Assembly: GCA_963924555.1 (NCBI GenBank)
Contig: OZ004598.1
Span: 1,264,501-1,328,500 of the forward strand
DNA: 64,000 bases
Reading direction: 5' to 3'
Origin: Crambe crambe
Lineage: Eukaryota > Porifera > Demospongiae > Poecilosclerida > Crambeidae
Positions within the stretch are counted from its first letter, which is position 1; the number at the start of each line of letters is the position of its first letter. The position numbers and the translations under genes were made by a program. Positions 10,841 to 63,059 of this stretch are shown piece after piece. Under the pieces are notes generated by a model. That model was not told the DNA's origin and searched no databases. It saw only the letters and a program-made list of their open reading frames with translations.

Positions 10841-11165
10841 GAGCCTAAACTCACACAAAAACAGCTGCCATTCTTTATGGTAATTTATGCTGAGTTTGCA
10901 GTAATTTTCCGGGTACTGTTTGTATTCTCAGAAAATTAACATTGTATTACGGCAATGGACTTCCGGTGCACTGGCGATTCGACTGACTGTGTATCATTAT
11001 CTCTTTATATTCAAAATAAAGCTCGCTTCCTGCATTTTGCAACTATGGAAACTGCGCAGAAGTGGCAGGAAGTGGATAGAAAAGGCAGGAACTGCGCATG
11101 CCACGTGTTCTTTTTCAACTTTTGAACTAAAATCAAAGTTGGTGTCTGTGTTAGTCAGGTTTACC

Positions 11166-14359: not shown

Positions 14360-14962
14360 CTACCAGGTTAACCAGTAATACGGGTTAGAGTTGTAGGGAT
14401 TTTGAAAAGGGTACTTGCCATTGAGGTTACTGTAAAGACAGTTTTTGAACCACCATCCACTCCCTCGTGATGAAGCACAAGTAGTATCGGTTTGATGATC
14501 TGGAGTGCTAAAAGGAGCTCCATTATGATAAGCCATTGCATCATATGTCCAGTTCCCTTTGACTTTCACACCTGGTCCAATCGTAAGCTTAAAGTTAGTT
14601 GTAGCATCACCTACTTTAAAGAGCTTGTAGGTCCAGATTACGCTTGGTTCTGTTCCATTTCCAAGTTCAATACGAAGTTCCACATCATCACGTTCAGTAA
14701 GGCAATTAATTTTTTCTAGTCCATACCAGAATTCACTCTCTAGATCTCCAAAGCCATAAACATAGTCAGTCCAGTTGCGGTTGAAGCTTATGGAGCCATT
14801 TATTCTGCGCTGTATGACAATCCACTTCCCTCCATCGGTCTCCATATCACAAAAAGTGTAATGTTTAGTACCAGTACCTTTAGCCTCAAACCTTGCAGGA
14901 ACATTGCAAACATTTTCTATTATATAGCTGCCAGAATGAGCTGAAGGCATTAGTTTCTTGAT
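14360..14962 (-). CDS. Fibrinogen-related domain protein, terminal exon
   Basis: The exon encodes almost a whole fibrinogen C-terminal domain of about 200 residues, a fold used by ficolins, tenascins and invertebrate FREP lectins to bind sugars or other ligands outside the cell. Recognisable parts in order: a Cys pair around NVCNVPARF and YTFCDMETDGG, WIVIQRR, the NWTDYVYGFGDLESEFWYGL block, AMAYHNGAPFSTPDHQTD near the usual calcium site, then the Cys in TTCASS paired with that in WWFKNC, and SNLNGKY. It ends in PYYWLTW. The exon opens after an acceptor (TTTGATTCAG) at 14963 in phase 0, with no in-frame ATG that would make a full domain, so upstream exons carrying a signal peptide should exist; I did not find them. 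No truncation inside the domain is evident. Confidence 0.85.
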   Translation of the reverse strand: MKKLMPSAHSGSYIIENVCNVPARFEAKGTGTKHYTFCDMETDGGKWIVIQRRINGSISFNRNWTDYVYGFGDLESEFWYGLEKINCLTERDDVELRIELGNGTEPSVIWTYKLFKVGDATTNFKLTIGPGVKVKGNWTYDAMAYHNGAPFSTPDHQTDTTCASSRGSGWWFKNCLYSNLNGKYPFQNPYNSNPYYWLTW

Positions 14963-15284
14963 CTGAATCAAATAATTTATGAAAAGTGATAGCTCTAGCT
15001 AGTGAGAGTCAATATAGTTAACTACCTATAGTATCTACATGTCAGTGTATGGTGGTGCCATGTTTGGTTTGTATGCACCTTTGCCATGGCATTGATGTCT
15101 GATGGAGTGGTTCTTCTAGCTAGTGGCTCACTTTGTGTTTCTTCAAGAATTAAACATACTACCATCGTAGCTTGCTTTCATAAGCTAGAAGGTCTGCTTT
15201 AGCAAATGAGTGAGCAGGACTTTGATAGATAGCTAGCTATTGCACTGTGAGAACATTATAATTGCCATAGTGATTGTTATACTT

Positions 15285-26414: not shown

Positions 26415-27326
26415 TTATCTGTAGTATGACAGGTTCTTTACGTGCTGTAAATGAACAGCAAGAGCTATGGCACCATCAGCACCAATAGAGTTATTATAGA
26501 GATACAGTGTTTGCAGGTTCGTACAGTGTTTTAGACCTTCAGCTAGAGCCTTGGCACCATCAGCACCAATAGAGTTCCAACTGAGATCCAGTGTTTGCAG
26601 GTTTGTACAGTGTTTTAGACCTTCAGTTAGAGCCTTGGCACCATCAGCACAAATAGAGTTATAATTGAGATTAAGTGTTTGCAGGTTCGTACAGCGTTTT
26701 AGACCTTCAGCTAGAGCCTTGGCACCATCAGCACGAATAGAGTTATAATTGAGATTAAGTGTTTGCAGGTTCGTACAGTGTTTTAGACCTTCAGCTAGAG
26801 CCTTGGCACCATCAGCACCAATAGAGTTATTATAGAGATCCAGTGTTTGCAGGTTCGTACAGTGTTTTAGACCTTCAGCAAGAGCCTTGGCACCATCATC
26901 ACCAATAGAATCACTTCGAAGATTCAGCATTTGCAGGTTTGTACAGTGTTTTAGACCTTCAGCAAGAGCCTTGGCACTATCAGCACCAATAGAGTTATTA
27001 TGGAGATCCAGTATTTGCAGGTTCGTACAGTGTTTTAGACCTTCAGCAAGAGCCTTGGCACCATCAGCACCAATAGAATCACTTCGAAGATTCAGCGTTT
27101 GCAGGTTTGTACAGTGTTTTAGACCTTCAGCAAGAGCCTTGGCACCATCAGCACCAATAAGGTTCCGATTGAGATCCAGTGTTTGCAGGTTCGTACAGTG
27201 TTTTAGACCTTCAGCAAGAGCCTTGGCACCATCAGCACCAATATGGTTCCGATTGAGATCCAGTGTTTGCAGGTTCGTACAGTGTTTTAGACCTTCAGCA
27301 AGAGCCTTGGCACCATCAGCACCAAT
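26415..27326 (-). repeat. 84-bp LRR tandem array, module 2
   Basis: Ten near-identical 84-bp units encoding IGADGAKALAEGLKHCTNLQ plus a variable LDLxxNS-type tail, then a diverged terminal unit. Differences are concentrated in the exposed positions after LQTL. The antisense strand gives spurious ORFs. Confidence 0.9.
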
Positions 27327-30300
27327 ATTACAATTAGTAAGGATCAATCTTGTACAATGTGCATGATGTTCAAGACATTTTGAAACAAGCTTGACATCAA
27401 TACAACTGAGCTCACGATTATGAACATCAAAGAAATCAAGCTCATTAATACTGTTAAGAAAAGTACTAAATCCAAAGATACTAATAATCTGATGAGCTGT
27501 ATCAAATGATAAATACGGTTTAGGAAGCTTCACTAACCTTACTTTAGGACTATTAAATTTTAATGATTCCAAAAAAGCAGAATCACCAACTACAAGGGTT
27601 TCAAGATTAGGTAAGGTGATGAAGCTAGTCAGAGCCTGCACTTTTAATGGTCCTAATTTTGTGTCAGATATATCTAATGTTTCCAAGGCACTCATTTTAC
27701 CAAGTAAAACATTAACCAATTTAAGTTGAGCCATGTTGCAATTGCCTCCATGGTAACATAGGGTATGTATTGACATCACACGATCGCCAGCCTCCTGAAA
27801 AAATGCACTGATGCCTTCTTCCCCTAATGTGCACCTGTTTAACACAATTTTCTTAACAGGATGTGATTCAGAAGCAGTGCTAACAATGAAACCAATGGCT
27901 GTCAAGTCTGATGGTGTCAAGAAGTGACTTTTAAGAGTGAGACTACCTTCTTCTCCAGACTGTATCACACTATCACATATGATGGGTTGCTGAGATTCAA
28001 AGGCACATTGAACTTGGAAGAGATCATCGTCCTGTGATTGTGATGACTTCATCAGCTCATCGAACTTTGTCAAGTTAATATCAAGGCCACAGTAAAACTT
28101 CCACACCACTTGCATATGTTTCCTCTTCCCATATGTCTTGATGACTTCAGTCTGTTCCTCTTTCTCTAGTCGACAGATGTGATATGCTGCCAGATATTCC
28201 TGGAAGGTCAGATGGAGGAACGTGTATAAGTCCTGAAATCCACTTATCATAGAAATGTGATCTACATTGATCAACCCAAGGGACTTGCTGCTGCTCCTAA
28301 CATCCTTTAAGAAATCCTTGACTTCACTGTGCTTCATGACTTGCTTTGAAGTTTTGGTCTTTTCAAACGCAAGCTTGCATATTTGAAGGAATAGCTTCCT
28401 TTCTTGTGCCGGTAGATCTTCGGGTGAATCTAAGCAAGGCTCATTTTCTTCACATCGTGTCAGACTACGAAGGAGTGTAAAATTGGTGAAATTCTTGTAC
28501 ATTTCTGTCTCGGTTTGTGGAAGACTGCAACCCATTTCATCAAATAAAAAACACACCATGGCAGAGTGAATGGGAAGGTAGCACATGTGATGGACGTTAG
28601 GATGTTGAGCAAGGTAAGAATGAAGATCTCCAGTTTTTTCAGTGCTTGAAAAGTTATACTTTTCTATGTACTGGAATATCTGCTCCTTTTTGAATCCGAG
28701 AACTTCCACTCGTTTAGTGGCTACTTTCTTCAACTGGGCTACAGCAGCTGGACGAGATGCAACTATGACAACTGATTTAGGAAGAATATTTCTCTTGATA
28801 AGCTGGAAAATCGTTGTTTCATTCTTTTTTTTAGGGGAATACTCATCCAGTCCATCTAATATGAAACACAACCCTTCACCACTGTTACTCTCAGCATGGC
28901 TTATAATGGATGATACAGATGATTCATTTTCGTAGTATCGTTTCATAATGTCAGTCAATTGAATATCAGGATCATTAAAGAACCCTCGTAAGTGAACAAG
29001 AAATAAAAACCTGATACTATCCAGTTGTAGCTCATTTTTAGCCCAATCTCGGCTGACCTTGTGGACGAGTGTGGTCTTCCCACTGCCTGGACGACCTTCA
29101 ATAAATAATCGTGCCCCAGTCTTGAGATGTGAAAACACTTCATTATACTCAATCTTCTCCTTGTTTTTCAAGATATTGTTGATTTCACTCTGTTTGATCA
29201 GAGCTAACTTGATGTAAGTGTTATTACTTACTGGTGGCCAAGTGTCTTCAGGTACTTCTGGTTGAGATAAATATCTATCTATTAGAGTCCTCTTTTCAGG
29301 AGGAACTATTACAGTTAATCTAATAGGCTCACTTTGTAACTTTTCATTGTCATGAGTTTGTACCTCACAATGATAAGTTCCTTCTGATGCCATGGTTACA
29401 TCATTTATGCATAGTATTTGCTTATAAGTACCACAATAAGTGAAATCATTATTCAAGGGAGCACCATCTTTCATCCATTGGTAGGTGATGGTGGTACCAT
29501 GGCTGACCTGTACTTCAAAAAGAGTCGACCTTTCTTCATTTACCTTTAAGTCACGTGTCTGGCGAACTATTTCCATGGGTGTGACTTGCAAACATGGTCG
29601 CTTCATTGGGCTGTGCCTCACTTGGCCTAATAAGTCATCAGTTACACCAAACTGAGAAAGTAAGTTCAGCCATTTCTCATATTGAATACTAGAATTATTA
29701 TCAATCCTCTCATATGCATACATAAATAAGTACCTGATCTTGAGTGAGCAGGATATGCAAGAATCAAGCAAGTCAAAGCTATTCTTGATCATTTGGGGGA
29801 TAAATCCTGTCTCTAATGCCTCTTTAGCAAAACTCATGAGATCAGCATCTTTAAGAGAAGTCACTAATTCATCTTCATAATCTTTAAGAACTTTTACTCT
29901 TTCAGATGAAATTATTACAGTTAATTTAATAGGCTCACTTTGTAACTTTTTATTGTCATGAGTTTGTACCTCGCAATGATAAGTTCCTTCTGATGCCATG
30001 GTTACATCATTTATACATAGTATTGGTTTATGAACATTGCAATCAGTTGAATCGTTCAAGGGAGCACCATCTTTCATCCATTGGTAGGTGATGGTGGTTT
30101 TATGATTGGTAGACACCTGTACTTCAAGAAAAGTAGACTTTTCTTCGTTTACCTTTAAGTCATGGGTCTGAGAAATAATTTCTAAACAGGCAACTTCTAA
30201 ACAGGGTCGTTTCGAAGCCAATTCTTCAAGAGGAGCATAATTATGTGGTCTCTTCGAACCTGCAGCACTCCCATTACCAGATAATTCCTCACTATTTGCA

Positions 30301-33300
30301 TCAGCAAGACTCTCAGTCATTGCAGATACACTATAATCACTTTCTCTTGCACAATACCCTTCATAACTAAGTCTCACTTGCTCTAATGCTTCACTAGATG
30401 CACCATGCTCAGATAATAACTTAAGCCATCGCTCATAGAGTCTAGGATTATTCTGCAGCGACTCGTACACATGTAAAAATAAGCACCTGATCTTTGTCGG
30501 CCAGTGCACATTAGGATCCATTGACTCTAAACTTTCCTTCACATCCTGAGAGATAAATCCTCCCTCTAATCCAAATCTAGCTAAACTCACTAGATCAGTG
30601 TCCTTGAGTGAAGTTACTAACTTGTCTTCATGGTCCTTAAGAGCTTTCACTGCTGCTGATACTGGTTCAAGATGGCTTCCTTTGGAGGATGAAGGCACCA
30701 ACTCATTTTTATCTTTAGCGGCCATATTTGTGTACACGTGATTCTGCGATTTCTCTTGATAAACTTCAATACTACATGCAGCAAGAGCCTTGGCACCATC
30801 AGCACCAATATGGTTCTGATTGAGATCCAGTGTTTGCAGGTTCGTACAGTGTTTTAGACCTTCAGCTAGAGCCTTGGCACCATCAGCACCAATAGAGTTC
30901 CAACTGAGATCCAGTGTTTGCAGGTTCGTACAGTGTTTTAGACCTTCAGCTAGAGCCTTGGCACCATCAGCACCAATAGAGTTATTATAGAGATCCAGTG
31001 TTTGCAGGTTCGTACAGTGTTTTAGACCTTCAGCAAGAGCCTTGGCACCATCATCACCAATAGAATCACTTCGAAGATTCAGCGTTTGCAGGTTTGTACA
31101 GTGTTTTAGACCTTCAGCAAGAGCCTTGGCACCATCAGCACCAATAGAGTTATTATGGAGATCCAGTATTTGCAGGTTCGTACAGTGTTTTAGACCTTCA
31201 GCAAGAGCCTTGGCACCATCAGCACCAATAGAATCACTTCGAAGATTCAGCGTTTGCAGGTTTGTATAGTGTTTTAGACCTTCAGCAAGAGCCTTGGCAC
31301 CATCAGCACCAATAAGGTTCCGATTGAGATCCAGTGTTTGCAGGTTCGTACAGTGTTTTAGACCTTCAGCAAGAGCCTTGGCACCATCAGCACCAATATG
31401 GTTCCGATTGAGATCCAGTGTTTGCAGGTTCGTACAGTGTTTTAGACCTTCAGCAAGAGCCTTGGCACCATCAACACAAATAGAGTTATTATAGAGATTC
31501 AGGGTTTGCAGGTTCGTACAGTGTTTTAGACCTTCAGCAAGAGCCTTGGCACCATCAGCACCAATATGGTTCCGATTGAGATCCAGTGTTTGCAGGTTCG
31601 TACAGTGTTTTAGACCTTCAGCAAGAGCCTTGGCACCATCAGCACCAATATTACAATTAGTAAGGATCAATCTTGTACAATGTGCATGATGTTCAAGACA
31701 TTTTGAAACAAGCTTGACATCAATACAACTGAGCTCACGATTATGAACATCAAAGAAATCAAGCTCATTAATACTGTTAAGAAAAGTACTAAATCCAAAG
31801 ATACTAATAAACTGATGAGCTGTATCAAACGATAAATACGGTTTAGGAAGCTTCACTAACCTTACTTTAGGACTATTAAATTTTAATGATTCCAAAAAAG
31901 CAGAATCACCAACTACAAGGGTTTCAAGATTAGGTAAGGTGATGAAGCTAGTCAGAGCCTGCACTTTTAATGGTCCTAATTTTGTGTCAGATATATCTAA
32001 TGTTTCCAAGGCACTCATTTTACCAAGTAAAACATTAACCAATTTAAGTTGAGCCATGTTGCAATTGCCTCCATGGTAACTTAGGGTATGTATTGACATC
32101 ACACGATCGCCAGCCTCCTGAAAAAATGCACTGATGCCTTCTTCCCCTAATGTGCACCTGTTTAACACAAGTTTCTTAACAGGATGTGATTCAGAGGCAG
32201 TGCTGACAACGAAACCAATGGCTGTCAAGTCTGATGGTGTCAAGAAGTGGCTTTTAAGAGTGAGACTACCTTCTTCTCCAGACCGAATCACACTGTCACA
32301 TACGATGGATTTTTGAGATTCAAAGGCACACTGAATGTGAAATAGATCATCAGGTGATTCTGAGCATTTCACAAGTTTTTCAAACTTCTTCGTATCATTT
32401 TCGAAATCAATAAGACCACAGTGAAACTTCCACACCACACGCATATGTTTCTTCTTACCATACTCCTCTATTATTTTAGTCTGTTCCTCCTCACCTAATT
32501 TAGTGATGTGATAAGCTGCAAGATATTCTTGAAAGGTGAGATGAAGAAACGTGTACAAGTCTTGGAATCCAAATTTGGCAGCAATGCAGTCTACAGTGAT
32601 CAATCCCAGGGACTCTTTCCCACAACTCACGTCCTTAAAGAAATGCTTAATCTCACTGCGCTTCATCACTTGCTTGGATGATACTGTTTTTTCAAAGGCA
32701 AGTTTACAAATCTGGAAAAAAATACCTCTTTCCATTTCAGGAAGATCGTCAGGTGACTGCAAATATCTTTCATTTTCATCGCAGCGCATTACAGTACGAA
32801 GGAGAGTGTGGATCATGAATGATGTGTACATTTCTGTCTCAGTTCTAGCAAGGGCAGTACCCATAAGGTTGAATAAATAGCACACCATGGAAGCATGGAT
32901 TGGAAGGTAGCACATGTGATGCACATTAGGATGCTGCTCAAGATAAGATTCGAGATTCTGGATTTTCTCAGCATTTGAAAATTTGTACTCTTTTATGTAC
33001 TGAGATATTTGTTCCTTCTGGAATCCAAGAACTTCCACTCGTTTGGTGGCTACTGACTTCAAATGCACCACAGCAGCTGGACGAGAAGCTACTACTACAA
33101 TTGATTTGGGAAGAAGCTCTTTATTTATGAGTTTAAATATGGTGGTATTTTTCTTCCCTTTGGGTGAGTACTCATCTAGTCCATCCAGAACAAAGCAAAG
33201 ACCTTCCCCACTAAATTGCTCTGAATGATCTAAGATTTGGTCAAGTCTTACTTGATCTTTGTAATAATGCTTCAAAATATCACGCAATTCGATAGAAGGA

Positions 33301-34408
33301 TCGTTAAGAAGTACTCGCAGATGGACCAGAAATAAAAGTCGAATATTTTTCAGATTTGATTTGCCACTGGCCCAATCTTGGCTGAACTTGTGGACAAGTG
33401 TGGTCTTCCCACTACCTGGACGACCTTCAATAAGCAATAATGTCCCACTAACAAGATTTGAAAATACTTCTTCGTACTCTATTCTGTCCTTGTCTTTTAA
33501 AATGTCATCCACATCTCCTTGTATGGTGTTGTATGCATACTCCCCAGCCTTGTCAATTGCACCTGGTTTGATCAGAGCTAAGTTAATGTAAGTGTTATTA
33601 CTTACTGGGGGCCACGTGTCCTTAGGTACTTCAGGTTGGGATAAATACATATCAATAAGCACTTTTTTCTCAGGTGAAACTTTAACAATTAATTTAATAG
33701 GCTCACTTTGTAACTTTTCATTTTCATGAGTTTTTACCTCGCAATGATAAGTTCCTTCTGATGCCATGGTTACATCATTTATGCATAGTATTTGCTTATG
33801 AGTACCACAATAAGTGGAGTGATCACTCAAGGGAGCACCATCTTTCATCCATTGGTAGGTGATGGTGGTTTCATGATTCGTAGACACCTGTACTTCAAGA
33901 AGAGCAGACTTTTCTTCACTTACCTTTAAGTCATGGGTCTGAGAAATCATTTCTAAACAGGCAACTTCTAAACAGGGTCGTTTCGAAACCAATTCTTCAA
34001 GAGGAGCATAATTATGTGGTCTCTTTGAAACTGCAGCACTCCCATTACCAGAAGATACACTATAATCACTTTTTCTTGCACAATACTCTTCATAACTACG
34101 TCTCACTTGCTCTAATGCTTCACTAGATGCACCATGCTCAGATAATAACTTAAGCCATCGCTCATAGAGTCTAGGATTACTCTGCAGCGACTCGTATGCA
34201 TGTAAAAAAAAGTACCTGATCTTTCTCGCCCAGTCTACTTCACGATCCATTGACTCTAAACTTTTCTTCACATCCTGAGAGATAAATCCTCTCTCTGATC
34301 CCAATCTAGCCAATCTTACCAGATCAGTGTCTTCGAGTGAAGTTACTAACATGTCTTCATGGTCCTTAAGAGCTTTTGAAACTGATACCTGACAAACTTC
34401 AATACTAC
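26415..34408 (-). CDS. Giant exon: two NLR receptors fused in tandem
   Basis: NLRs are cytosolic sensors that oligomerise through NACHT ATPases. One uninterrupted frame of about 2660 codons carries two full modules. Module 1 (numbered from 34472): death-fold-like helical domain 34-130, Ig-like domain about 190-265 (TYQWMKDGAPL, GTYHCEV), NACHT with Walker A GRPGSGKTTL (350) and Walker B CFVLDGLDEY (426), winged-helix FLHLTFQEYLAAYH (642), and 10 full LRRs of 28 residues from 941. Module 2 starts at 1233 (SIEVYQEK): death-fold, Ig, a second diverged death-fold, a second Ig, NACHT (Walker A about 1792) and 10 LRRs plus a capping unit ending NLSYYR. The exon begins after acceptor CTGCAG at 34409 in phase 1; the open frame upstream has only TTG, so the true start must be in upstream exons (see 40608-40950). 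No stop lies between modules. A transcript is needed to prove one protein. Confidence 0.85.
30770..30785 (-). other. Fusion junction between NLR modules
   Basis: The eleventh LRR of module 1 breaks off after GAKALA and runs straight into ACSIEVYQEK. The text GCTGCATGTAGTATTGAAG matches the acceptor and exon start of the other NLR exons (CTGCAGGTAGTATTGAAG) except that the acceptor G is now T. So the break lies at or beside the old splice acceptor of a second NLR main exon, joined in frame to the LRR of the first, with a few bases of shared CTG.A text. Confidence 0.75.
30786..31652 (-). repeat. 84-bp LRR tandem array, module 1
   Basis: Ten full 84-bp units and the start of an eleventh, almost identical in DNA to the array at 26415-27326, including the ordered unit types NRNH, NRNL, RSDS, HNNS, YNNS and SWNS. 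The eleventh unit is cut by the fusion junction. Confidence 0.9.
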
Positions 34409-36140
34409 CTGCAGTGTTGAAAAAAATATATGATGAAGTGACAGGTAGACATACAATTAACTTCAATGCCAACTTATTATTAACCCAATGCTTACAAAGT
34501 AATGATACATGGCAAAGACGTCATGACCGTAATTCTGATGAATGGGTGTGGCCTTTTCAGTGTGCAGTACAGTGCACTTTAACACACATAGTGGACTTGT
34601 GTACAAGGCAACAGGGTATGGGCTAGTGCAGCATGTCACTATTTATCTAACTTTCATAGTATACCTTAAGGTGGGTATTGTTGGCGGCTACTAATTTTAG
34701 CATTTAATTAAGGGGATACTGAATTTGGCGGGTATTAATTTTAGCTATTTTGAGCTTTGTGTAATAGCTATTTTTAAATGTAGTTTCGTATGAAGTTTCT
34801 TCAAGAATATCAGGCACGAACGATACAATGCATTATTGTGTCAGTAACTATCATTGGAGAGTTAGTTTTTGTAGATTGAACAAAAAGGATCTTCATTGGG
34901 AATAGTGATACTTCAATCTATCACACCTGTCACTCCTGCCTTTTTCCACCCTACTGCTTCTTGAGTCCATGAAATCAGAAGTATCTGAAACAGACACTGA
35001 TGAAGACAACAGCAATCTAGCTAACTCCGCCAGGACACTCAAACAGCTTTGACACTGTTTTTGTTCAACATTACTTCTAATTATACAAAATTTTATTATT
35101 AGCGCATGCTTATATTAGCAAATAAAGGCTGACTTGCTAAATTCACTAAATTAACAAGTCGCCAATAATACCCACCTTAAGGTAGACCCTCACTAATTAA
35201 AGGGGTGTGGTCTCCACTCAACATTTAGTATAGGGCAGATAATGTCATGACTAAAAATAGCATGTGGCCACGTCCATGTGGATGAGTAGTGCTTAGTCTA
35301 TTCATGTTTTTTAGCATGTGTGTTGCTGTTTCTCTTGGGAAGAGGAAGTTCCTGAAGATAGAACTTTAAATCAGAAATCAAAGCTGGAATATATGACTGC
35401 ATTGTTGTCAGAGCTTCAGTTGGTCAAAGAAAACGTGATCTAATGACTACTAGTATTCTGTCAGTTATGAATTTTTTTACAGCTTTTAAAGCTACCATGC
35501 TTGAGAAGACGTGTCTTAATTATACATGTTCTCTTATTGCCGGACCGTGTGTTTGTGAAAGATCATAGCTATATGGAGAAGCTGTATTATTCATGTGGTT
35601 GTGAACCTATTTGTGTTTATTGTGTGACCACATGATGTCCAAGACACTTCCAACTGCAGCAATTTTCCATAATATGAAGAACGCAAACATCCCAAGCCCA
35701 TTAATAAACCATAAAAGAAATCTAATTATAAATACAACTTTATGTCATTTTCCCTTTTTGTGTTTCATAATACCCTCCCTCATCGATATTTGGGACAGGA
35801 AACAAGTATATTATTACTGTTGGCCTTAGGGGTATAGCAAACCATCACCATTTAAACAGTGAACATGCACCTAACAACAAGATGTCATTTTGGGTGGGTA
35901 TTATTTAGAGCATCACTTGATAAGGCCATGCATGTATACACTTTGAAGTGAGATAACAAAGGGTAGCTAAACCAGCAAATTAAGCAAGGAAACTAGCACC
36001 TAACATTAATATAAGTGAGGTGTGCCTAATTATGACCAAGCTTGAAATTGGTATTGACTTTTTTCCCCTCCAAGTGGTCATTTTAAATTTCAGATTACAA
36101 GAATTTAGAGCTCTATTGTTTGACTGTGTATATAACATAC
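34409..36140 (-). other. Predicted last intron before the NLR main exon
   Basis: Runs from the donor after the linker exon ending at 36141 to the acceptor at 34410-34409. A TIR element (34662-35184) occupies part of it. No further linker exon was recognised. The intron call depends on the multi-exon gene model. Confidence 0.5.
34662..35184. mobile_element. 523-bp TIR element, TACCTTAAGGTGGGTATT ends
   Basis: TACCTTAAGGTGGGTATTGT at the left is matched by its complement at the right end (35160-35184) with one or two mismatches over 25 bp. TAATTTTAGC follows on the left and a similar word on the right. No transposase ORF; non-autonomous. Confidence 0.8.
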
Positions 36141-36236
36141 CTCTGTCTCTTTCCTTGGCCACTCTCTTGGGAGAGGGGGGAAGTAGTCTTGGTTCTGGAT
36201 TGGAATTTCTGGTTCGTGTGGGCACATTTGCTGAAC
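36141..36236 (-). CDS. 96-bp phase 1-1 linker exon, copy 1
   Basis: Acceptor TTAATAG before 36236 and donor GTATGT after 36141 bound a 96-bp exon. It starts and ends in phase 1 and reads SANVPTRTRNSNPEPRLLPP then SPKRVAKERDR. Near-identical copies lie at 37968-38063 and 40086-40181. Predicted to form a flexible, proline- and charge-rich linker between the DEATH exon and the NLR main exon. Confidence 0.55.
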
Positions 36237-42224: not shown

Positions 42225-42744
42225 CATAGATAAAAGAGGAAGGAGGGATTGGAAACGCGCCGCTCACGTGCGCAGTCTACTATAACTTTTGTACACAGTG
42301 GCGGCATCTCCTTTGATGTAGAGGCGTGTTATGATTTTTCACGTTTCCGGGTGAAGGAAATTAGCTGCTACAGCTCAGCTCTGCTCTGCTGATGGTGCTA
42401 AATCATACTTGGGCTCTAAATAGAATCACGAGTGAAAGTTCTACACTAGACTACAGGTTTTGCTAACTTGGGTGAGCGTTTATCATAGAAAAGTTGGAAT
42501 GTTCTGTATATTTATCCCTCTAGAGAAACTCTGCTCAATTATTTATGTCTGCCACTAGAAATATTGCTTAGTATGGGTTACACTAATGTATGCAGCAAGT
42601 AGCCAGTCCTTTTCAGGTTCATTTCTGCCACAATTGCTTAAATTATGTTCAAACTTGTTATAGTTTCAATTATCCCTGTAAGTCAGTGCATTGTCATAGT
42701 ATATTGTTTCAATTTGGTGTACTGTTAGCTGATATGTATGAGCA

Positions 42745-45567
42745 ATGTATGCATATCATACTTTTTTAGCATGCCTTACAGAAAGAGATTTCAACACCGA
42801 AAAAAAACAAGCAAGGGAGAAGCGGGAGAAAAAATTTCAGCAACAGTTGGAATCATCTGATACATGTATTCCTCTCTCTGAAACTGATAGTATACTAACC
42901 TCAGAATCCTCTTTCACTACAACTGATGAATCACAATCACTTTCTGGAGTGACTGATCACATTGGTACATGCGTAAGAGATTCCCCAGGTGATACTTCTG
43001 ATACCCCTTTGCATTTACTACATGGATCTCTTTGTCAACCAAGTAAAGCTTGGTGTGACCAAAGTCCAGAGGGATTGAACAAGCTTATTTTTTGTAAATT
43101 ATCTCAATTTAGTAGCAGTAATTCACAGCCATTGATTGTTACTCATAGTTTGACAGTTAATTCGGATTTGACATGGAAACTGTTCGTCCTCAATCATGAA
43201 ATAACCACTTCATGTAGTATTTTGGAAACTTTTCCTTCTAGATTGAGTGAAGAGACCTTTTCTAAACTTCTTGCAAAGCTGGACAGTGCTTCTATATGCA
43301 TGGGACAACCGGATGCTGATTTCGTGCGCATGGTTACAGCCAAAAAGGGCATGGTTGTTTCACGTGATGGTAAAATCGCATGTACTGTGGATAATAATAC
43401 ATACCTGAAAACAGTTCGTACTTCAGATTGTGAAATTTTGTGTGCTGCTGAAAAGTGTTGTGCATGTAAGAACTACAGGGCAACACTTCGTTCAATGTAT
43501 CACAGGTGGAACAAAAAATCAAGGTGCTCTAGTGATTTCACTAATGAAAGGTATATGAACACTCCTGAGAAAAGGAGGAAAATGGAAAAGCTTAAGAAAA
43601 GAGTTCACACTGCTGAACAGAAAGTTGTGAAGCTAAAAGAAAAAGTGCGTAAGCTAATTGATTGTAATGGTGAGGCACTCGATGAAAATCTGCACTCTGA
43701 TATGATAGCAATCATGAAGGAGAACACAGATAAGGTCAGAAGTGTATATCCTGAAGGTAGTTTCTCCAGGCTCTTCTGGGATGAACAGATGAAAGCAGCA
43801 TCGCTTGGCAACTTGAAACAGATTCGATGGCATCCAGTCCTCATTAAATGGTGCTTAAACCTAAAATTGCTGTCTAGTTCTGCATACCATGTCATGAGAT
43901 CTAGCGGTTTCCTTAAATTGCCATCTGAGAGGACCCTCAGGGATTACACCCACTATTTTGCTAATGAGACGGGATTCATGGATGAAATTGATGAACAACT
44001 TCTTGGGGAGATACCTACTTCTCTTTCTCCATCTAGACGATATATTGCGCTTTTAATTGATGAAATGAAGGTACGCGAGGGTCTTGTGTTCAACAAGCAT
44101 TCGGGACAAATCATTGGATTTACCAAATTAGGTGATATTAATGATGACCTGTTACTGTTGGAAAGTGAAAGTGAACCAGAGGTTGCAAAACAAATTCTTG
44201 TTCTTATGGTACGTGGAATATTGTTTAAGCTTTCTTTTCCTTATGCCCATTTTGGAACACGTGGTGTCACTGCTGACTTACTGTTCCCAATAGTATGGGA
44301 AGCAGTGCAACGACTGGAAGGTAGAAATCTCAAAGTAATTTGCATTACTGCAGATGGTGCTAGCCCCAATCGTAAATTTTTCCGCATGCATCATGTGAAG
44401 AAAGACTGTACTACTAGTTTTCACAAGGCCCGCAACCCTTATTCATCTGAAAACCGTTGGGTGTACTTTGTTTCCGATCCTCCGCACCTGATGAAGACAG
44501 TCAGGAATTGTTGGTCACATTCAGGAATTGATCGAACCAGACATATGAAGGTATGAGTATTCTGCTACCTGTACTGTGTATGTCTTGTTCACGTGTCATC
44601 GGTTTACACCTTATACATTTTACCATGTGCCATGAAACTAATTATGTCATTTTGAGTCCTCAGCTGTCACTTGGTTACTTTTATGTCAGTATTACTGTGT
44701 ATGGTGTAGGTTAATAACCAGTTCATAGAATGGAAGCAGCTGCTGGACCTATACGCCAAATTATCAGATACAGAAATTAGTTCTCAAGGGCTTTCTCTGG
44801 TGCCTAAACTGAAGAGAGAACATGTCCAGCTAACCTCTTTCTCCAGGATGCGCGTAGATCTCGCCACACAGGTACTAGTGCATTAGATAAAATGATATTT
44901 CCTGTGCATAATGAAATTATTCAATAGGTTTTAAGCAAGACTGTATCTGATGCATTCTCATACTTTGGAGATTCAGCAACAAAGGAAACTCAAAAGTTTA
45001 TCCTATTCTTTGACCGATTCTTTGATTGTCTAAACGTCAGAAATCTCAATGAGTGGGTATTAAAAAGGAAGCCTGATCTTAAGCCTTACTATAGTCCTAA
45101 TGATGCTCGCTTGCAGGTTTGTTAGCAATGCACATACTTATGAATGCAAGCATATACTTTTTTTTGCAGTGGTTAAAAAAGGATTTTTTAAGATATCTTT
45201 CTGAGTGGGAAGAGTATGCTGATAAGAACACTACATCGGCTAAGGATAACGGCAAAATGATGTTGAGCAGAGAAACTTTAGAAGGCATACGAATGACTGG
45301 TAATTTACTGTTTCAATAGAGGTAACAAATTCACTGGTTTTCTTTGATTTTGCAGTGATGTCATTTGTCGAAATAACAAAGTATCTACTATCACAGCCAA
45401 AAGATTCGGATCAGAAACTATATGTGTTGAGTGAGAGGATATCTCAGGACCCCCTTGAAAACTATTTTGGTAAACAAAGGGCTCGAGGTGGAAGGAACGA
45501 AAACCCCAACCTACAACAATGCCTCCATAATGCTGCTGCTCTAAGGGTACAGAAATCAATGGCCTAG
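42745..45567 (+). CDS. P-element/THAP9-like transposase
   Basis: Five exons with GT-AG borders and compatible phases: 42745-44550, 44710-44871, 44928-45116, 45170-45299 and 45356-45567. After an acidic Ser-rich N-terminus come a CxxC-bearing segment (KCCACKNYR), a Lys/Glu coiled coil (EKRRKMEKLKKRVHTAEQKV) and the RNase H-like core with YIALLIDEMKVREGLVF and ITADGASPNRKFF, plus VSDPPHLMKTVRN. The last exon has SQDPLENYFGKQRARGGRN, the hallmark C-terminal block of THAP9-type proteins, which catalyse cut-and-paste transposition. The N-terminal THAP zinc finger was not found, so an upstream exon may be missing. The stop at 45565 is followed in another frame by a basic tail (EPVRGNCSRKRRLFGDE) typical of the family, so a one-base loss just before it probably shortened the protein. 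Confidence 0.8.
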
Positions 45568-57165: not shown

Positions 57166-59090
57166 TCAACTAAACCTTGATTTCAGCTTCAGGTTTTTAC
57201 AGTGCTTTAGACGTTTAGATATAATCTTTACACGATTAACACTAATATTGTTCCTTTTGAGATCCAGGTTCGTACAGTGTTTTTGACCTTCTGCAAGGGC
57301 ATTGATACCATGATAACCAATAGAGTTACCACTACAACCTAGTGTTTGCAGGTTCGTACAGTGTTTTAGACATTCAGCAAGAGCCATGGCACCACCAGAA
57401 CCAATAGAGTTATCAGAGAGATTCAGTGTTTGCAGGTTCATACAGTGTTTTAGACCTTCAACAAGAGCCTTGGCACCATCACCACCAATAGAATTATTAC
57501 GAAGATTCAGCGTTTGCAGGTTCGTACAGTGTTTTAGACCTTCAGCAAGAGCCATGGTACCATCATCACCGATAGAGTTCCTATAGAGATCCAGCGTTTG
57601 CAGGTTCGTACAGTGTTTTAGACCTTCAGCAAGAGCCTTGGCACCATAAACACCAATAGAGTTACTTTGAAGATTCAGTGTTTGCAGGTTCGTACAGTGT
57701 TTTAGACCTTCAGCAAGAGCCTTGGTACCATCAACACCAATAGAGTTACTTTCGAGATTCAGTGTTTGCAGGTTCGTACAGTGTTTTAGACCTTCAGCAA
57801 GAGCCTTGGTACCATCATCACCAATAGAGTTACTTTTGAGATTCAGCATTTGCAGGTTCGTACAGTGTTTTAGACCTTCAGCAAGAGCCATGGTACCATC
57901 ATCACCGATAGAGTTCCTATAGAGATCCAGCGTTTGCAGGTTCGTACAGTGTTTTAGACCTTCAGCAAGAGCCTTGGCACCATAAACACCAATAGAGTTA
58001 CTTTCAAGATTCAGTGTTTGCAGGTTCGTACAGTGTTTTAGACCTTCAGCAAGAGCCTTGGTACCATCAGCACCAATAGAGTTACTTTCGAGATTCAGTG
58101 TTTGCAGGTTCGTACAGTGTTTTAGACCTTCAGCAAGAGCCTTGGTACCATCAACACCAATAGAGTTACTTTCGAGATTCAGTGTTTGCAGGTTCGTACA
58201 GTGTTTTAGACCTTCAGCAAGAGCCATGGTACCATGATCACCAATAGAGTTCCTATAGAGATCCAGCGTTTGCAGGTTCGTACAGTGTTTTAGACCTTCA
58301 GCAAGAGCCATGGTACCATCATCACCGATAGAGTTCCTATAGAGATTGAGCGTTTGCAGGTTCGTACAGTGTTTTAGACCTTCAGCAAGAGCCTTGGCAC
58401 CATAAACACCGATAGAGTTACTTTGAAGATTCAGTGTTTGCAGGTTCGTACAGCATTTTATACCTTCAGCAAGAGCCATGGTACCATCACCACCGATAGA
58501 GTTCCTATAGAGATCCAGCGTTTGCAGGTTCGTACAGTGTTTTAGACCTTCAGCAAGAGCCTTGGCACCATAAACACCAATAGAGTTACTTTGAAGATTC
58601 AGTGTTTGCAGGTTCGTACAGCATTTTATACCTTCAGCAAGAGCCTTGGCACCATCAACACCAATAGAGTTACTTTTGAGATTCAGTGTTTGCAGGTTCG
58701 TACAGTGTTTTATACCTTCAGCAAGAGCCTTGGCACCATCAGCATCAATAGAGTTATTATTAAGATCCAGTGTTTGCAGGTTAGTACAGTGTTTTAGACC
58801 TTTAGCAAGAGCCTTGGCACCATTAGCACGAATGGAGTTACTACAAAGATCTAGTGTTTGCAGGTTTGTACAGTGTTTTAGACCTTTAGCAAGAGCCTTG
58901 GCACCATTAGAACGAATAGAGTTACTTTGAAGATTCAATGTTTGCAGGTTCATACAGTGTTTTAGACCTTCAGCAAGAGCCCTGACACCATCAGTATCAA
59001 TAGTGTTATTGAAGAGATCCAGCATTTGCAGGTTCATACAGTGTTTTAGACCTTCAGCAAGAGCCTTGGCACCTATACTGTACTTTAGAC
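57166..59090 (-). repeat. About 23 LRR units with higher-order repetition
   Basis: 84-bp units as in the fused NLR but of different types. The pair IGVYGAK...DLYRNS + IG(G/D)DGTM recurs four times, showing that two- and multi-unit blocks have been duplicated. The outer units at both ends (IDTDG, ISVNR) are the most diverged. Confidence 0.85.
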
Positions 59091-62000
59091 TAGTACAATG
59101 TTCAAGATCACCTGAATGGAGTTTGATTTCATCATTGGCTAATTTGATATATTTTATGTCCATTAATGATCCATTATGAAAGTATGGAAGAAGAACTGAA
59201 AGATTAAATGCATCAAATAACTCCTGAATACAATTTAGATTTTCGAAATCAGATAATTCAAGTTTTTTAAGATTTGTCAGGTGTATACCACTAGTGAGAG
59301 CCTTCACTTTTTGGGGTCCTAATGCAGTGTCAGAAATATCTAATGTTATTAGGGAAGTCAATTCCTTCAATAATACATTGATAACTTTCAGCTCTCTCAT
59401 TCTGCAGTCCCCTCCGTGAAAACAAAAGGTTATTATTGACGATACTTTATCCTCTGCTTCTTTCAGGAATGCATCCATCTCTTCTCCCCCAATTTTACAT
59501 CTATTCAAAACTAATTTCTTGACAGAAGCATTGCTGATGACATAACCTAAAGCTGTCAAGTCTGATGGAGTCATAATACGATTCTTGAAAGTGAGACTAC
59601 ATTCTTCTCCAGACTGAATCACACTGTCACATATGATGGATTGCTGAGATTCAAAGGCACACTGAATTTGGAATAAATCATCGTCCTGTAACAACTTCAT
59701 GAGCTCTTCGAACTTTGTCAAGTTAACATCCAGCCCACAGTAAAACTTCCACACCACTTGCATGTGTTTCTTCTTCCCATATGTCTTGATAACTTTAGTC
59801 TGTTCCTCTTCTTTCAATTGAGAAATGTGATATGCTGCCAGATATTCCTGAAAGGTCAGATGAAGGAACGTGTACAGGCCCTGATACCCATATTCTTCAG
59901 AAATGCGATCTACATTGATCAATCCAAGAGACTCTCTGTTATTTTTAACACCCTCGAAGAAATCCTTGACTTCGTTGTGCTTCATGTATTGTTTACGGTG
60001 AATAGTTTTTTCATAGGCAAGTTGGCATATTTGATGAAAATAAAGAGTTTTCTTTTCTTGTTCTGGTAGATCTGCTGATAATTCTGTGTCAGGGTTGTGC
60101 TCTTCACAGCATTTGATAGTACGAAAAAGTGTGTGATTGGTGAACTTGGTGTACATTTTTGTCTCGGTCCGAGGAAGATCGTGACCCAGTACTTCAAATA
60201 AATAACACACCATGGCAGTATGAATGGGAAGATAGCACATGTGCTTTACATTAGGATGCTGATCAAGGTAAGAAAGAAGATCTCCACTTTTCTTAGTGCT
60301 TGAGAATTTATACTTTTCAATGTATTGGAATATCTGCTCCTTTTCAAATCCGAGAACTTCCACTCGTTTGGTGGCTACTTTCTTCAATTGGGCTACAGCA
60401 GCTGGACGAGATGCAACTATGACAACAGATTTAGGAAGAATATTTTTCTTGATAAGCTGGAAAATCATTGTTTCATTCTTCTTTTTAGGGGAATACTCAT
60501 CCAGTCCATCTAATATGAAACACAGCCCCTCACCACTGTTACTCTCAGCATGACTTATAATGGATGATACAGATGATTCATTTTTGTAGTATCGTTTTAG
60601 GATGTCAGTCAATTGAATATCAGGATCATTAAAGAACCCTCGTAAGTGAACAAGAAATAAAAGCCTGATACTATCCAGTTGTAGCTTATTCTTGGCCCAA
60701 TCTCGGCTGACCTTGTGGACGAGTGTGGTCTTCCCACTGCCTGGACGACCTTCAATAAATAATCGTGCCCCAGTCTCGAGATGTGAAAACACTTCATTAT
60801 ACTCAATCTTCTCCTTGTCTTTCAAGATATCGTCTATATCTCCTTGTATGGTCTTGTATGCATACTCACCAGCTTTGTTGATTTCACTCTGTTTGATCAG
60901 AGCTAAATTGATGTAAGTGTCATTACTTACTGGTGGCCAAGTGTCTTCAGGTACTTCTGGTTGAGATAAATATCTATCTATAAGAGTCCTCTTTTCAGGA
61001 GGAACTATTACAGTTAATTTAATAGGCTCACTTTGTAACTTTTCATTTTCATGAGTTTGTACCGCACAATGATAAATTCCTTCTGATGCCATGGTTACAT
61101 CATTTATGCATAATATTTGCTTATGAGTACCACAATAAGTGGAGTCATCACTCAAGGGAGCACCATCTTTCATCCATCGGTAGGTGATGGTGGTTTCATG
61201 ATTAGCAGATACCTGTACTTCAAGAAGAGCAGACTTTTCTTCACTTACGTTACAGTCACAGGTTCGAGATAAAACTTCTAAAGGAGTGACTTCTAAACAT
61301 GGTCTCTTTGAGGCTGATACTTCACTAGTGAAACACATCTCAAGCTTTCTGAGGTTTTCTTGTAATTTATTAGCCTCACTACCAAGACCAACAGTCTTAC
61401 TATGAAGTGTTTCTTCAAGACTTTTCACTGTGGGAGGTTTTGCATGTTCATGATTACCAATTATCCATTCCCGCAACACATCATTTAAACAAATTATGAA
61501 TTCTTGTAAATGCATTTTGCCCCTTATGCTACGTAACAATTGATAAGGCAAGTTCAGTGAAGTGCCAATCTCATTCCATTTATGGCAGTGATTGGCAAGT
61601 ATCTCTGTCAAAACTGAAACGTGCTGTTCATAAAAATGATCATATTTGTGTGGTCTCTTTGTACCTACTACAACCCCAGCATTCACACCACCAGATACAC
61701 TTTCTCTTGCACAATACTCTTCAGAACTAAGTCTCGCTTGTTCTAATGCATAACTAAGTCTCACTTGCTCTAATGCTTCACTAGATGCACCATGCTCAGA
61801 TAATAACTTAAGCCATCGCTCATAGAGTCTAGGATTTCTCTGCAGCGACTCGTACACATGTAAAAATAAGTACCTGATCTTTGTTGGCCAGTGCACATTA
61901 GGATCCATTGACTCTAAACTTTCCTTCACATCCTGAGAGATAAATCCTCTCTCTGATCCAAATCTAGCTAAACTCACAAGATTGACACCCTCGAATGAAG

Positions 62001-62153
62001 CTACCAACTTGTCTTCATGGTCCTTAAGAGCTTTCACTGCTGCTGATACTGGTTCAAGATGCCTTCCTTTTGAGGATGAAGGCACCAGCTCACTTTCATC
62101 TTTATTGGCCATATTGTGTACATGTGATTCCTCCTGATGAACTTCAATACTAC
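57166..62153 (-). CDS. NLR main exon: deathfold-DEATH-Ig-NACHT-LRR
   Basis: Numbered from an in-frame ATG at 62241 (1691 residues): death-fold-like domain about 70-165, a clear DEATH domain 205-300 (LTEILANHCHKWNEIGTSLN, CLNDVLREWI, PPTVKSLEETLHSKTVGLGS), Ig-like domain about 330-410 (TYRWMKDGAPL, GIYHCAV), NACHT with Walker A GRPGSGKTTL (498) and Walker B CFILDGLDEY (about 574), winged-helix FLHLTFQEYLAAYH, then about 23 LRRs of 28 residues to the C-terminus. A splice acceptor CTGCAG at 62155-62154 precedes the same SIEV start, in phase 1, as in the fused NLR. The exon therefore probably starts at 62153 with an upstream DEATH/linker part beyond or near the window edge, although MLFTSTIMNVLHRM could be a genuine start. 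No stop interrupts it. ATP-driven oligomerisation and ligand sensing by the LRR are inferred from the family. Confidence 0.88.
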
Positions 62154-62241
62154 CTGCAGTGTTAAAGTGTGTAGCCATGAAACTACTTGCTGGTATATCC
62201 ATTCTATGTAGAACATTCATGATTGTAGAGGTGAATAGCAT

Positions 62242-63059
62242 GTCATTGGAAGTATTTAACCCTTTACCAATCCAAAGGATTGGATCTAATTAATGCCCAT
62301 GGCACCCCCATTTTTGTCTGTGCAGCTCTAGTGCAATATGGTATGAGACCCCTTTATGAATACAGAGAGCAGTAGCTCTCTCTATGCAGGGATGACGTGG
62401 ATGGCTGTGCGCACCACCTACAGATTAATACAAAAATGAAATTCTAGTTCCCCACTTAGACTCAATAAAAGCTACTGTGAGTGATTATCCAGCCTACTAG
62501 AGCCTACTACAATGTGTAGACCAAGTTTCAGGACCAGGGAGCTTACTATTTCAGAAATATGGCAAGCAGGTAAATCGCTGGATTCTGTTACTATTCTTCT
62601 TAGATAACCATATCTCTCAAACCACTCAAGCTACAGCTATGATTTCTGGATAAATCCACTTCAAATTCTACCAGCTACAATCCTTGGAAGAGTCGATGTA
62701 AAAGGAGACACTACGGAGCACAGTACTCGACCACTTTTCTATAATAGTCTACGCATGCGCATGCATATCCAATTACATATATATGTATTCAACATTACTC
62801 AGCTAGCTGTATGTACTCTGAACTCTAGCTCTATCAACTCAGTGATTTTAGATCACCAATCCACCTACCAGTAGACAAGGCTAGGTAGACTCTATTTCAG
62901 ATTCATCTGCATCTTCGACTTCCAGCTCAACACTAACACTTTAAGCCTTGACTCACTGATAAATAATCATTGGGCTGCTATGCTATTGGACCTTGCTGCT
63001 GTCAATGTTGTTCATTAGTTCACACAGAGTTCTCAAATTTGTAACAGAATGATGTAATT
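62242..63059. other. Upstream of NLR; repeat R2 copy 3 at 62385-62995
   Basis: 62385-62995 repeats the R2 landmarks: GAAATTCTAGTTCC, TGATTATCCAGCCTACTAGA, CCAAGTTTCAGGACCAGGGA, GAACTCTAGCTC-like text and AATAATCATTGGGCTGCTAT. It would lie in the 5' intron of the NLR if its start is further upstream. Confidence 0.6.

Follow-up and report, generated by a model that had tools for sequence, protein, structure and literature searches.

Organization of a fused NLR gene

Within the stretch of 64,000 nucleotides from the sponge Crambe crambe that was analysed here and is termed the window, a single stop-free frame extends on the minus strand over positions 26415-34520 and comprises 2701 amino acids from stop to stop, with neither stop codon nor frameshift interrupting its 2701 codons. 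The runner-up open frame of the window contains 1707 residues. The long fused exon (26415..34408, minus strand) apparently starts at 34408, directly following an acceptor-like site (TTTTTTTCAACACTGCAG/GTAGTATT, 34409/34408), and ends with the stop codon at 26415-26417. Of 12 cluster loci retrieved, 10 contain the acceptor motif, which also stands ahead of both NLR genes of the window; loci L014 and L020 lack it even when three mismatches are allowed. On its 5' side, a block of 96 nt with phase 1 at both ends (36141..36236, minus strand) is the nearest of several cassette copies, with additional ones located near 38.0 and 40.1 kb. Among 12 genes with compared flanks, 8 contain an equivalent block ahead of the long exon, bordered by an AG acceptor and a GAG/GTATGT donor, and from these conserved splice sites we infer that it constitutes an exon.

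A Pfam search of the fused protein identified two stretches of NACHT (E 1.6e-53), three of I-set and 12 of LRR_6. A NACHT profile built in this analysis places the two switch domains at aa 353-519 and aa 1796-1962, each containing one Walker A motif (aa 366 and aa 1809) and, by eye, the Walker B region GLCF[VI]LDGLDEY, while the LRR ladders span aa 962-1246 and aa 2403-2701. A plant-type NB-ARC as best switch domain was ruled out by a score of 26.5 bits (cut-off 23.5) compared to 181.4 bits for NACHT. The initial annotation of two NACHT-LRR modules arranged head to tail in one frame is thus borne out by the Pfam and profile matches. The receptors were also described as complete, which does not hold, since the join truncates the LRR array of module 1, and 15 residues are missing ahead of the Walker A motif of module 2.

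Module 1, the A half, begins with a helical domain (34065..34388, minus strand, as all features below), followed by an I-set Ig domain (33666..33965), in which inspection by eye finds the Trp and the late Cys kept and the early Cys of the B-strand absent, a NACHT of clade A (32964..33464; Pfam, profile and tree) and an LRR array (30783..31637), whose 28-residue ladder starts at aa 962 and breaks off within a repeat at the join. Module 2, the B half, contains two pairs of helical and Ig domains. Its first helical domain (30306..30674), recognized in the comparison of these domains, is 79% identical to that of module 1 and precedes an I-set Ig domain (29916..30179). The second (29586..29915), with 48% identity to the first of the same module, precedes another I-set Ig domain (29286..29558). 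The site of the 15 missing residues, a 45-nt gap compared to a sibling copy described below, is located at 29176..29178, ahead of a NACHT of clade B that has kept Walker A and Walker B (28635..29135; Pfam, profile and tree) and an LRR array that runs to the stop codon (26418..27314).

This order of parts agrees with the initial annotation, whereas the label death-fold given there to what we call helical domains (HDs) remains unconfirmed. No Pfam family matched the three HD copies at E<=10, a test that is insensitive, because the Death-like stretch of the neighbouring gene was likewise unmatched. A PDB search with the HD returned seven matches at E<=10, none of them a death-fold chain, and comparison of an HD profile with a profile of Death-like domains of relatives (built from 60 of 172 HD and 60 of 164 Death-like copies) gave a probability of 0.2%.

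The fused gene belongs to a fast-changing tandem cluster of receptor genes, and the NACHT domains of its two halves fall into different clades of this cluster, A (support 100/100) and B (99/97), by which local duplication of one gene was rejected as origin, and any built-in pair would consequently be a heterodimer of different subtypes. A neighbouring single-NACHT gene of clade B (57166..62289; Pfam and tree) served for comparison only. In windows of 300 nt, the fused gene displays a mosaic ancestry, and its 5' part resembles another cluster gene, L011.

The join and its sibling copy

The two halves meet at 30775..30782, where the LRR interior of gene A (GCTCTTGCTG) passes into CTGCA, the last intron bases before the long exon of gene B, with an overlap of three nucleotides, CTG, common to both (30781-30779). 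The join contains no canonical acceptor, its CAG being changed to CAT (30776) and a pyrimidine tract being absent, and the usual upstream intron, cassette exon and acceptor are missing between the halves. Since the join bases match the intron end CTGCA and not the end of the upstream exon, ACAGAG, a retrocopy of a spliced read-through message is not favoured. The arrangement suggests a short-overlap deletion that would have removed the start region and acceptor of the downstream gene, thereby bringing two receptors into one frame.

A 22-mer covering the join has a single other zero-mismatch site in the genome, C21:1404669-1404690, which is located 109 kb away and carries the same T, and three further sites with three mismatches each. 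The second perfect site is part of a sibling fusion (C21:1399690-1408629) that shares the join and the order of A followed by B, but whose frame, unlike that of the window copy, is broken by a 19-nt tandem duplication before the join and by two frame-shifting indels in module 2. Divergence between the two copies is 0.3-16% when measured in steps of 300 nt, so neither can be regarded as a simple duplicate of its counterpart. N runs are absent from the window. The initial annotation had raised the concern of an assembly collapse, which we consider probably unfounded because the identical join recurs 109 kb away, followed there by a broken frame; the join is thus very probably inherited DNA and not a chimera of the assembly.

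Constraint on the two modules

In the comparison with the sibling, nucleotides 900-2640 of module 1 contain 23 N to 25 S changes (P 2.5e-6 against neutrality), an estimate that exchange among paralogues may have confounded, as several of them are equally close in this region.

For module 2, polarization with P0124, using P0009 as tie-breaker, placed 23 of the 29 residues that differ on the window branch and the other 6 on that of the sibling. It was dropped because P0009 has the residue of the window in 9 of these 23, an indication that P0124 clusters with the sibling and cannot serve as a genuine outgroup. Cluster DNA was for that reason used instead, assigning 21 of 44 changes to the window branch and 23 to the sibling. 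The sibling branch, with 14 N to 9 S (P 0.034), leans to constraint, as do both branches taken together, with 30 N to 14 S (P 0.058), and the window branch contains 16 N to 5 S (P 0.45), a result based on 21 substitutions of which some were polarized by even or near-even votes. The recent substitutions in module 2 of the window copy thus look near neutral, although adaptive change would fit as well. Since the two copies separated, drift would be expected to have introduced about 1.8 stops into module 2 and some 3.3 into the exon as a whole, and the probability of finding none in 2400 nt of module 2 is 0.32; the open frame by itself is therefore weak proof of function.

The segment preceding Walker A was compared in other NACHT domains. 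The spacing between the upstream motif and Walker A, measured in 153 NACHTs out of 170 Walker A matches, is 40 in module 2 and 52-56 in the other 152. Of 145 Walker A matches, 13 including module 2 lack a stricter version of the motif, T..G[DN].DD; among the other 12, one is a fragment beginning at the NACHT and 11 have a variant segment in the usual place. Module 2 is therefore set apart by its spacing only and not by the loss of the motif.

Proteins with two nucleotide-binding domains

The fused frame is the only one with two NACHTs among 103 scored matches of 232 candidates and, in a second survey, among 150 scored of 190. In these frames the initial statement that NLRs carry a single NACHT is sustained, whereas it fails in P0040, the one protein with two NACHTs among 174 relatives in the database matches listed, which include P0012, the window's own neighbouring gene, and receptors with two NB-ARC domains, among them an NLNLN type, are reported from plants. 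P0040 (2154 aa, encoded on a contig of 360,843 bases) resembles the fusion in its NACHT-LRR-NACHT-LRR arrangement in one frame, with HD-, Death- and Ig-like parts recognized by eye ahead of the first NACHT. It differs by its 49% identity over 39% of P0001 and by a second half that starts just before the NACHT, and since latter is devoid of its own HD-Ig parts, P0040 reflects a separate fusion event. The fused protein itself is absent among the best 120 of 623 matches in a database of 5.8 billion proteins, and a near-identical second half is absent among the best 120 of 1531 matches, with a top identity of 91%. This absence neither supports nor excludes the fusion. A literature search, judged largely by titles, met no report of double-NACHT proteins.

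In the sponge Dysidea avara, NLRs are described with a NACHT followed by LRRs and with a CARD, a DEATH or no named N-terminal domain (PMC12909245). They share with the fusion the order of NACHT and LRRs and, in the available account, belong to expanded and partly clustered families, but contain one NACHT, and that account mentions neither a double NACHT nor an Ig-NACHT combination. Two switches per predicted protein are described for plants, in rice Pib (PMC4917536), an NLR of the wheat Rwt4 interval (PMC10027608), the NN, NLN and NLNLN classes of pepper (PMC11899730) and an NB-LRR-NB-LRR class (PMC11126693), with NLNLN also containing two LRR blocks. In contrast to the fusion these are plant proteins with NB-ARC instead of NACHT, and their origin is presumably independent. 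The NLR-B30.2 proteins of zebrafish form a large family, as in the cluster described here, whose shaping involved amplification and fusion of genes, shuffling of exons and gene conversion (PMC4852459), although the fusion outlined in that source adds a B30.2 domain and not a second NLR.

Discussion

We favour, with moderate confidence, a young fusion generated by recombination in the cluster, in which the A half would be working and the B half a passenger. The join would have arisen when tandem genes underwent a deletion or an unequal exchange, and the fused gene would have been copied later. With transcription starting 5' of module 1, translation would yield a single protein of roughly 2.6-2.7 thousand residues, whose module 1 would operate as receptor with an ATP-dependent NACHT switch and sensing by its LRRs. 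Module 2 would for now be a C-terminal passenger with weak constraint and an altered segment before the NACHT, and the fusion as a whole would be a by-product of birth-and-death evolution.

NLRs act as rings or wheels built of single-NACHT subunits. A working cis-paired receptor, in which NACHT A and NACHT B in one chain would seed a mixed oligomer, seems rather unlikely to us. By analogy to the two-gene pairs of plants, one half might sense and the other signal, at a stoichiometry fixed to 1:1. Its appeal lies in the origin of the halves from two distinct clades, as in linked pairs of plant NLRs, for which pairing across two clades is described (PMC5819176), in the P-loop and Walker B kept in both NACHTs, in a frame that is intact in the window and broken in the sibling, in the existence of P0040 as different double-NACHT relative and in the lean to constraint of module 2 over both branches. 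These features are countered by the lost segment before Walker A, the neutral appearance of window-branch substitutions in module 2 and the truncated LRR array of module 1.

We also see little probability in a non-functional fusion that is decaying and not expressed as one protein, with the sibling further along the same path. The frame-shifting lesions of the sibling on both sides of the join, together with the weak constraint and lost segment of module 2 in the window copy, whose frame could be open by luck, would fit such decay, but 8 kb without stop or frameshift, a NACHT region of module 1 that is strongly constrained relative to the sibling and the intact splice sites of the exon copies on the 5' side argue against it. 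Similarly speculative is the proposal that the protein might be a covalent heterodimer of NLR subtypes with the altered NACHT acting as fixed partner or brake, and that such LRR-anchored fusions might be recurrent, as exemplified by this join and P0040. Finally, an assembly artefact uniting two separate genes is very improbable. In its favour, the fused protein and a near-identical second half are missing from the best database matches, although a database contig of 1,014,382 bases encodes products that match nine cluster genes at 100% or 99.9% identity; this contig may end before the fused gene. Against it, the same join with the same T recurs at the second site, the two copies diverge from each other, and the window is free of N runs.

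The double receptor is known here as a reading frame, and its product and function are putative. Combining NACHTs of two subtypes in one chain, it would offer a natural test of whether a tethered pair can seed rings and of the ways in which receptor clusters generate new architectures. The presence of a decayed sibling and an intact copy within one genome provides a built-in comparison.

Results

The initial annotation had described two NLR receptors fused head to tail in a single open exon with two NACHT Walker A/B sets and two LRR arrays, and our analysis bears this out. In a stop-to-stop listing of the window, the gene is contained in a frame of 2701 amino acids on the minus strand (26415-34520), whose translation includes no stops, followed in length by a frame of 1707 residues. 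Pfam detects NACHT in two stretches of this frame, besides three I-set and twelve LRR_6 matches, and a custom profile places the NACHT domains, both of which contain a Walker A motif, at residues 353-519 and 1796-1962. The frame crosses an acceptor-like site at 34409, consisting of a pyrimidine tract and CTGCAG, so the long exon probably starts at 34408. The same acceptor motif precedes both NLR genes of the window and occurs in 10 of the 12 cluster loci inspected (absent in L014 and L020), and an exact 26-mer at this site is confined to two places, the window copy and locus L011.

The death-fold identity of the helical domains (HDs) is unproven. Three copies matched no Pfam family at E≤10, in a search whose insensitivity is evident from its failure to detect the Death-like stretch of the neighbouring gene, and a profile of seven copies matched seven chains in the PDB, none of them a death-fold. 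Nor was there a match between the HD profile and the Death-like domains that relatives carry. Visual inspection of the Ig domains shows that the tryptophan and the late cysteine are retained, with no early-strand cysteine seen, which would fit an intracellular protein. Stacked HD-Ig units are also apparent by eye at the N-terminus of the cluster protein P0006, and the relatives P0154 and P0155 carry eight and five Death-like copies before NACHT, respectively, with one further copy at the C-terminus of each.

In a maximum-likelihood tree of NACHT domains plus following residues (23 rows), the NACHT of the first half (module 1) falls into a clade of eight (clade A, support 100/100) and that of the second half (module 2) into a clade of seven (clade B, 99/97), the two being 65% identical at the protein level. 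As judged from these relationships, the fusion joins two genes of different subtype, and the separate supported clades exclude the internal duplication of one gene. The LRR parts of both modules are far closer, with 97% identity over 699 nt (26629-27327 vs. 30784-31482, minus strand), which suggests gene conversion or exchange between the LRR ends.

In ordinary cluster genes, the acceptor reads ...AACACTGCAG|GTAGTATTGAAG..., and the corresponding sequence of the fused gene is ...GGTGCCAAGGCTCTTGCTGCAT|GTAGTATTGAAG.... The join thus comprises the LRR repeat as far as GCTCTTGCTG and then the last bases of the intron with CAG changed to CAT, a CTG being common to both partners. With AG and pyrimidine tract both missing, the former site of module 2 retains no canonical acceptor. 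A putative cassette exon of 96 nt with phase 1 at both ends precedes the long exon in 8 of the 12 genes used for comparison, and three candidate copies are located on the minus strand of the window (36141-36236 and near 38.0 and 40.1 kb). It would encode a sequence ending in PKRVAKERDR and possibly provides alternative first parts. Its predicted end, ACAGAG, does not match the join, and a copied message is thus not favoured as the source of the fusion. Related blocks are found in a row with a spacing of about 147 nt on the same contig (C21:835842-836880).

A genome-wide search for the join pattern with up to three mismatches retrieved five places, three with three mismatches and two exact, the latter being the window copy and C21:1404669-1404690 in a second copy of the fusion (the sibling, C21:1399690-1408629). 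A chance assembly error would hardly have produced an identical join, including the altered base, twice in the genome, which makes the assembly collapse considered in the initial annotation improbable. The first frame of the sibling (1340 residues) is broken by a 19-nt tandem duplication just 5' of the join and is followed by frames of 696 (across the join), 262 and 822 residues; module 2 of this copy contains two frame-shifting indels. Compared in 300-nt steps, both copies are 84-99.7% identical in module 1; in module 2, the identity is 97.7-98.7% up to nt 2400 and 89-93% beyond. In a windowed comparison, the resemblance of the window copy changes along its length, from L011 (near 5' flank and start of the exon) via the sibling and further paralogues (middle) to L019 (near 3' flank).

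Both NACHT searches of the genome (143 Mb, 119 contigs) found two NACHTs only in the fused frame, although, with only the best candidates scored (103 matches of 232 candidates and, with the NACHT of module 2 as query, 150 of 190), another such frame could have escaped. Thirteen NACHT-bearing places, including the first module of the sibling, lie at 1.32-1.65 Mb of C21. Not counted among them are the fused gene (1.29 Mb) and the sibling's broken second module; all are on the minus strand. The loci L014 and L018 (C21:1554.5-1568.2 kb) comprise an A-type gene (P0130, frame of 1209 residues, listed domains without LRR) and, downstream of it, a B-type gene, and the fusion could have arisen from neighbours of this kind. 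The fused gene is flanked by frames of a Mutator-like transposase (10905-13397, plus strand, 830 residues) and a TNP-like RNase H transposase (42742-44556, plus strand, 604 residues), and a further frame contains a fibrinogen C-terminal domain (14360-14998, minus strand, E 4.5e-47).

Three protein searches (best 120 of 623, of 1531 and of 861) listed 174 proteins besides the fused P0001 and its single-NACHT neighbour P0002, including P0012, which is P0002 with another start. NACHT is present in 175 of these 176 proteins and occurs twice in two of them, P0001 and P0040. The latter, which matches 39% of P0001 with 49% identity, joins an LRR to the segment just before a second NACHT and thus represents a separate fusion event. 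A contig of 1,014,382 bases encodes counterparts of nine cluster genes with 100% or 99.9% identity; none of the matches listed, either on this contig, which may not cover the site, or elsewhere, was the fused protein. Another contig of 1,954,053 bases, encoding P0124 (91% to module 2) and P0137 (94% to module 1), may come from a related animal or from a haplotype that has diverged.

Differences between window copy and sibling were used to assess selection. Nucleotides 900-2640 of module 1 contain 23 nonsynonymous and 25 synonymous differences (P 2.5e-6 against neutrality), the LRR part 26 and 4, and the ratio for the whole module is 0.54. The 44 differences in the initial 2400 nt of module 2, polarised with cluster DNA, assign 16 nonsynonymous and 5 synonymous changes to the window branch, with an omega of about 0.84 (P 0.45), and 14 and 9 to that of the sibling, with an omega of about 0.41 (P 0.034), giving 30 and 14 when pooled (P 0.058). 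A polarisation based on P0124 (23 residue changes in the window copy, 6 in the sibling) was dropped, as this protein seems to group with the sibling. By drift, the window branch would be expected to have gained about 1.8 stops in module 2 and about 3.3 in the whole exon, and the open frame is thus only moderate evidence for maintenance. Module 2 also lacks 15 residues preceding Walker A, where relatives contain KAGEYAYNTIQGDID with small variants. In 176 proteins with 170 Walker A matches, 153 NACHTs show an upstream YINLALI-like motif, whose spacing to Walker A is 40 in module 2 and 52-56 in all of the other 152. When a stricter motif was applied to the segment itself, 13 of 145 lacked it, so the sequence is variable but the spacing hardly so.

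Discussion

Very probably, the described locus represents a genuine fusion of two NLR genes that has been inherited, the window copy being intact and the sibling decayed. From the lost acceptor and the open frame, we infer a single-protein product. A literature search, judged largely by titles, found neither the wording 'two NACHT domains' nor a double-NACHT protein, and the text seen of a sponge NLR study (PMC12909245) mentions neither double NACHT nor Ig-NACHT, nor are these named in the portions seen of PMC8260672, PMC4852459 and PMC2268669. Plant receptors with two NB-ARC domains are reported, among them rice Pib (PMC4917536), a wheat candidate (PMC10027608), the NLN and NLNLN receptors of pepper (PMC11899730) and further proteins (PMC11126693).

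The fused protein could possibly act as a tethered heterodimeric receptor. Most likely, the gene is a young product of recombination within the cluster, whose first half is predicted to work as a receptor and whose second half would be a weakly constrained passenger.
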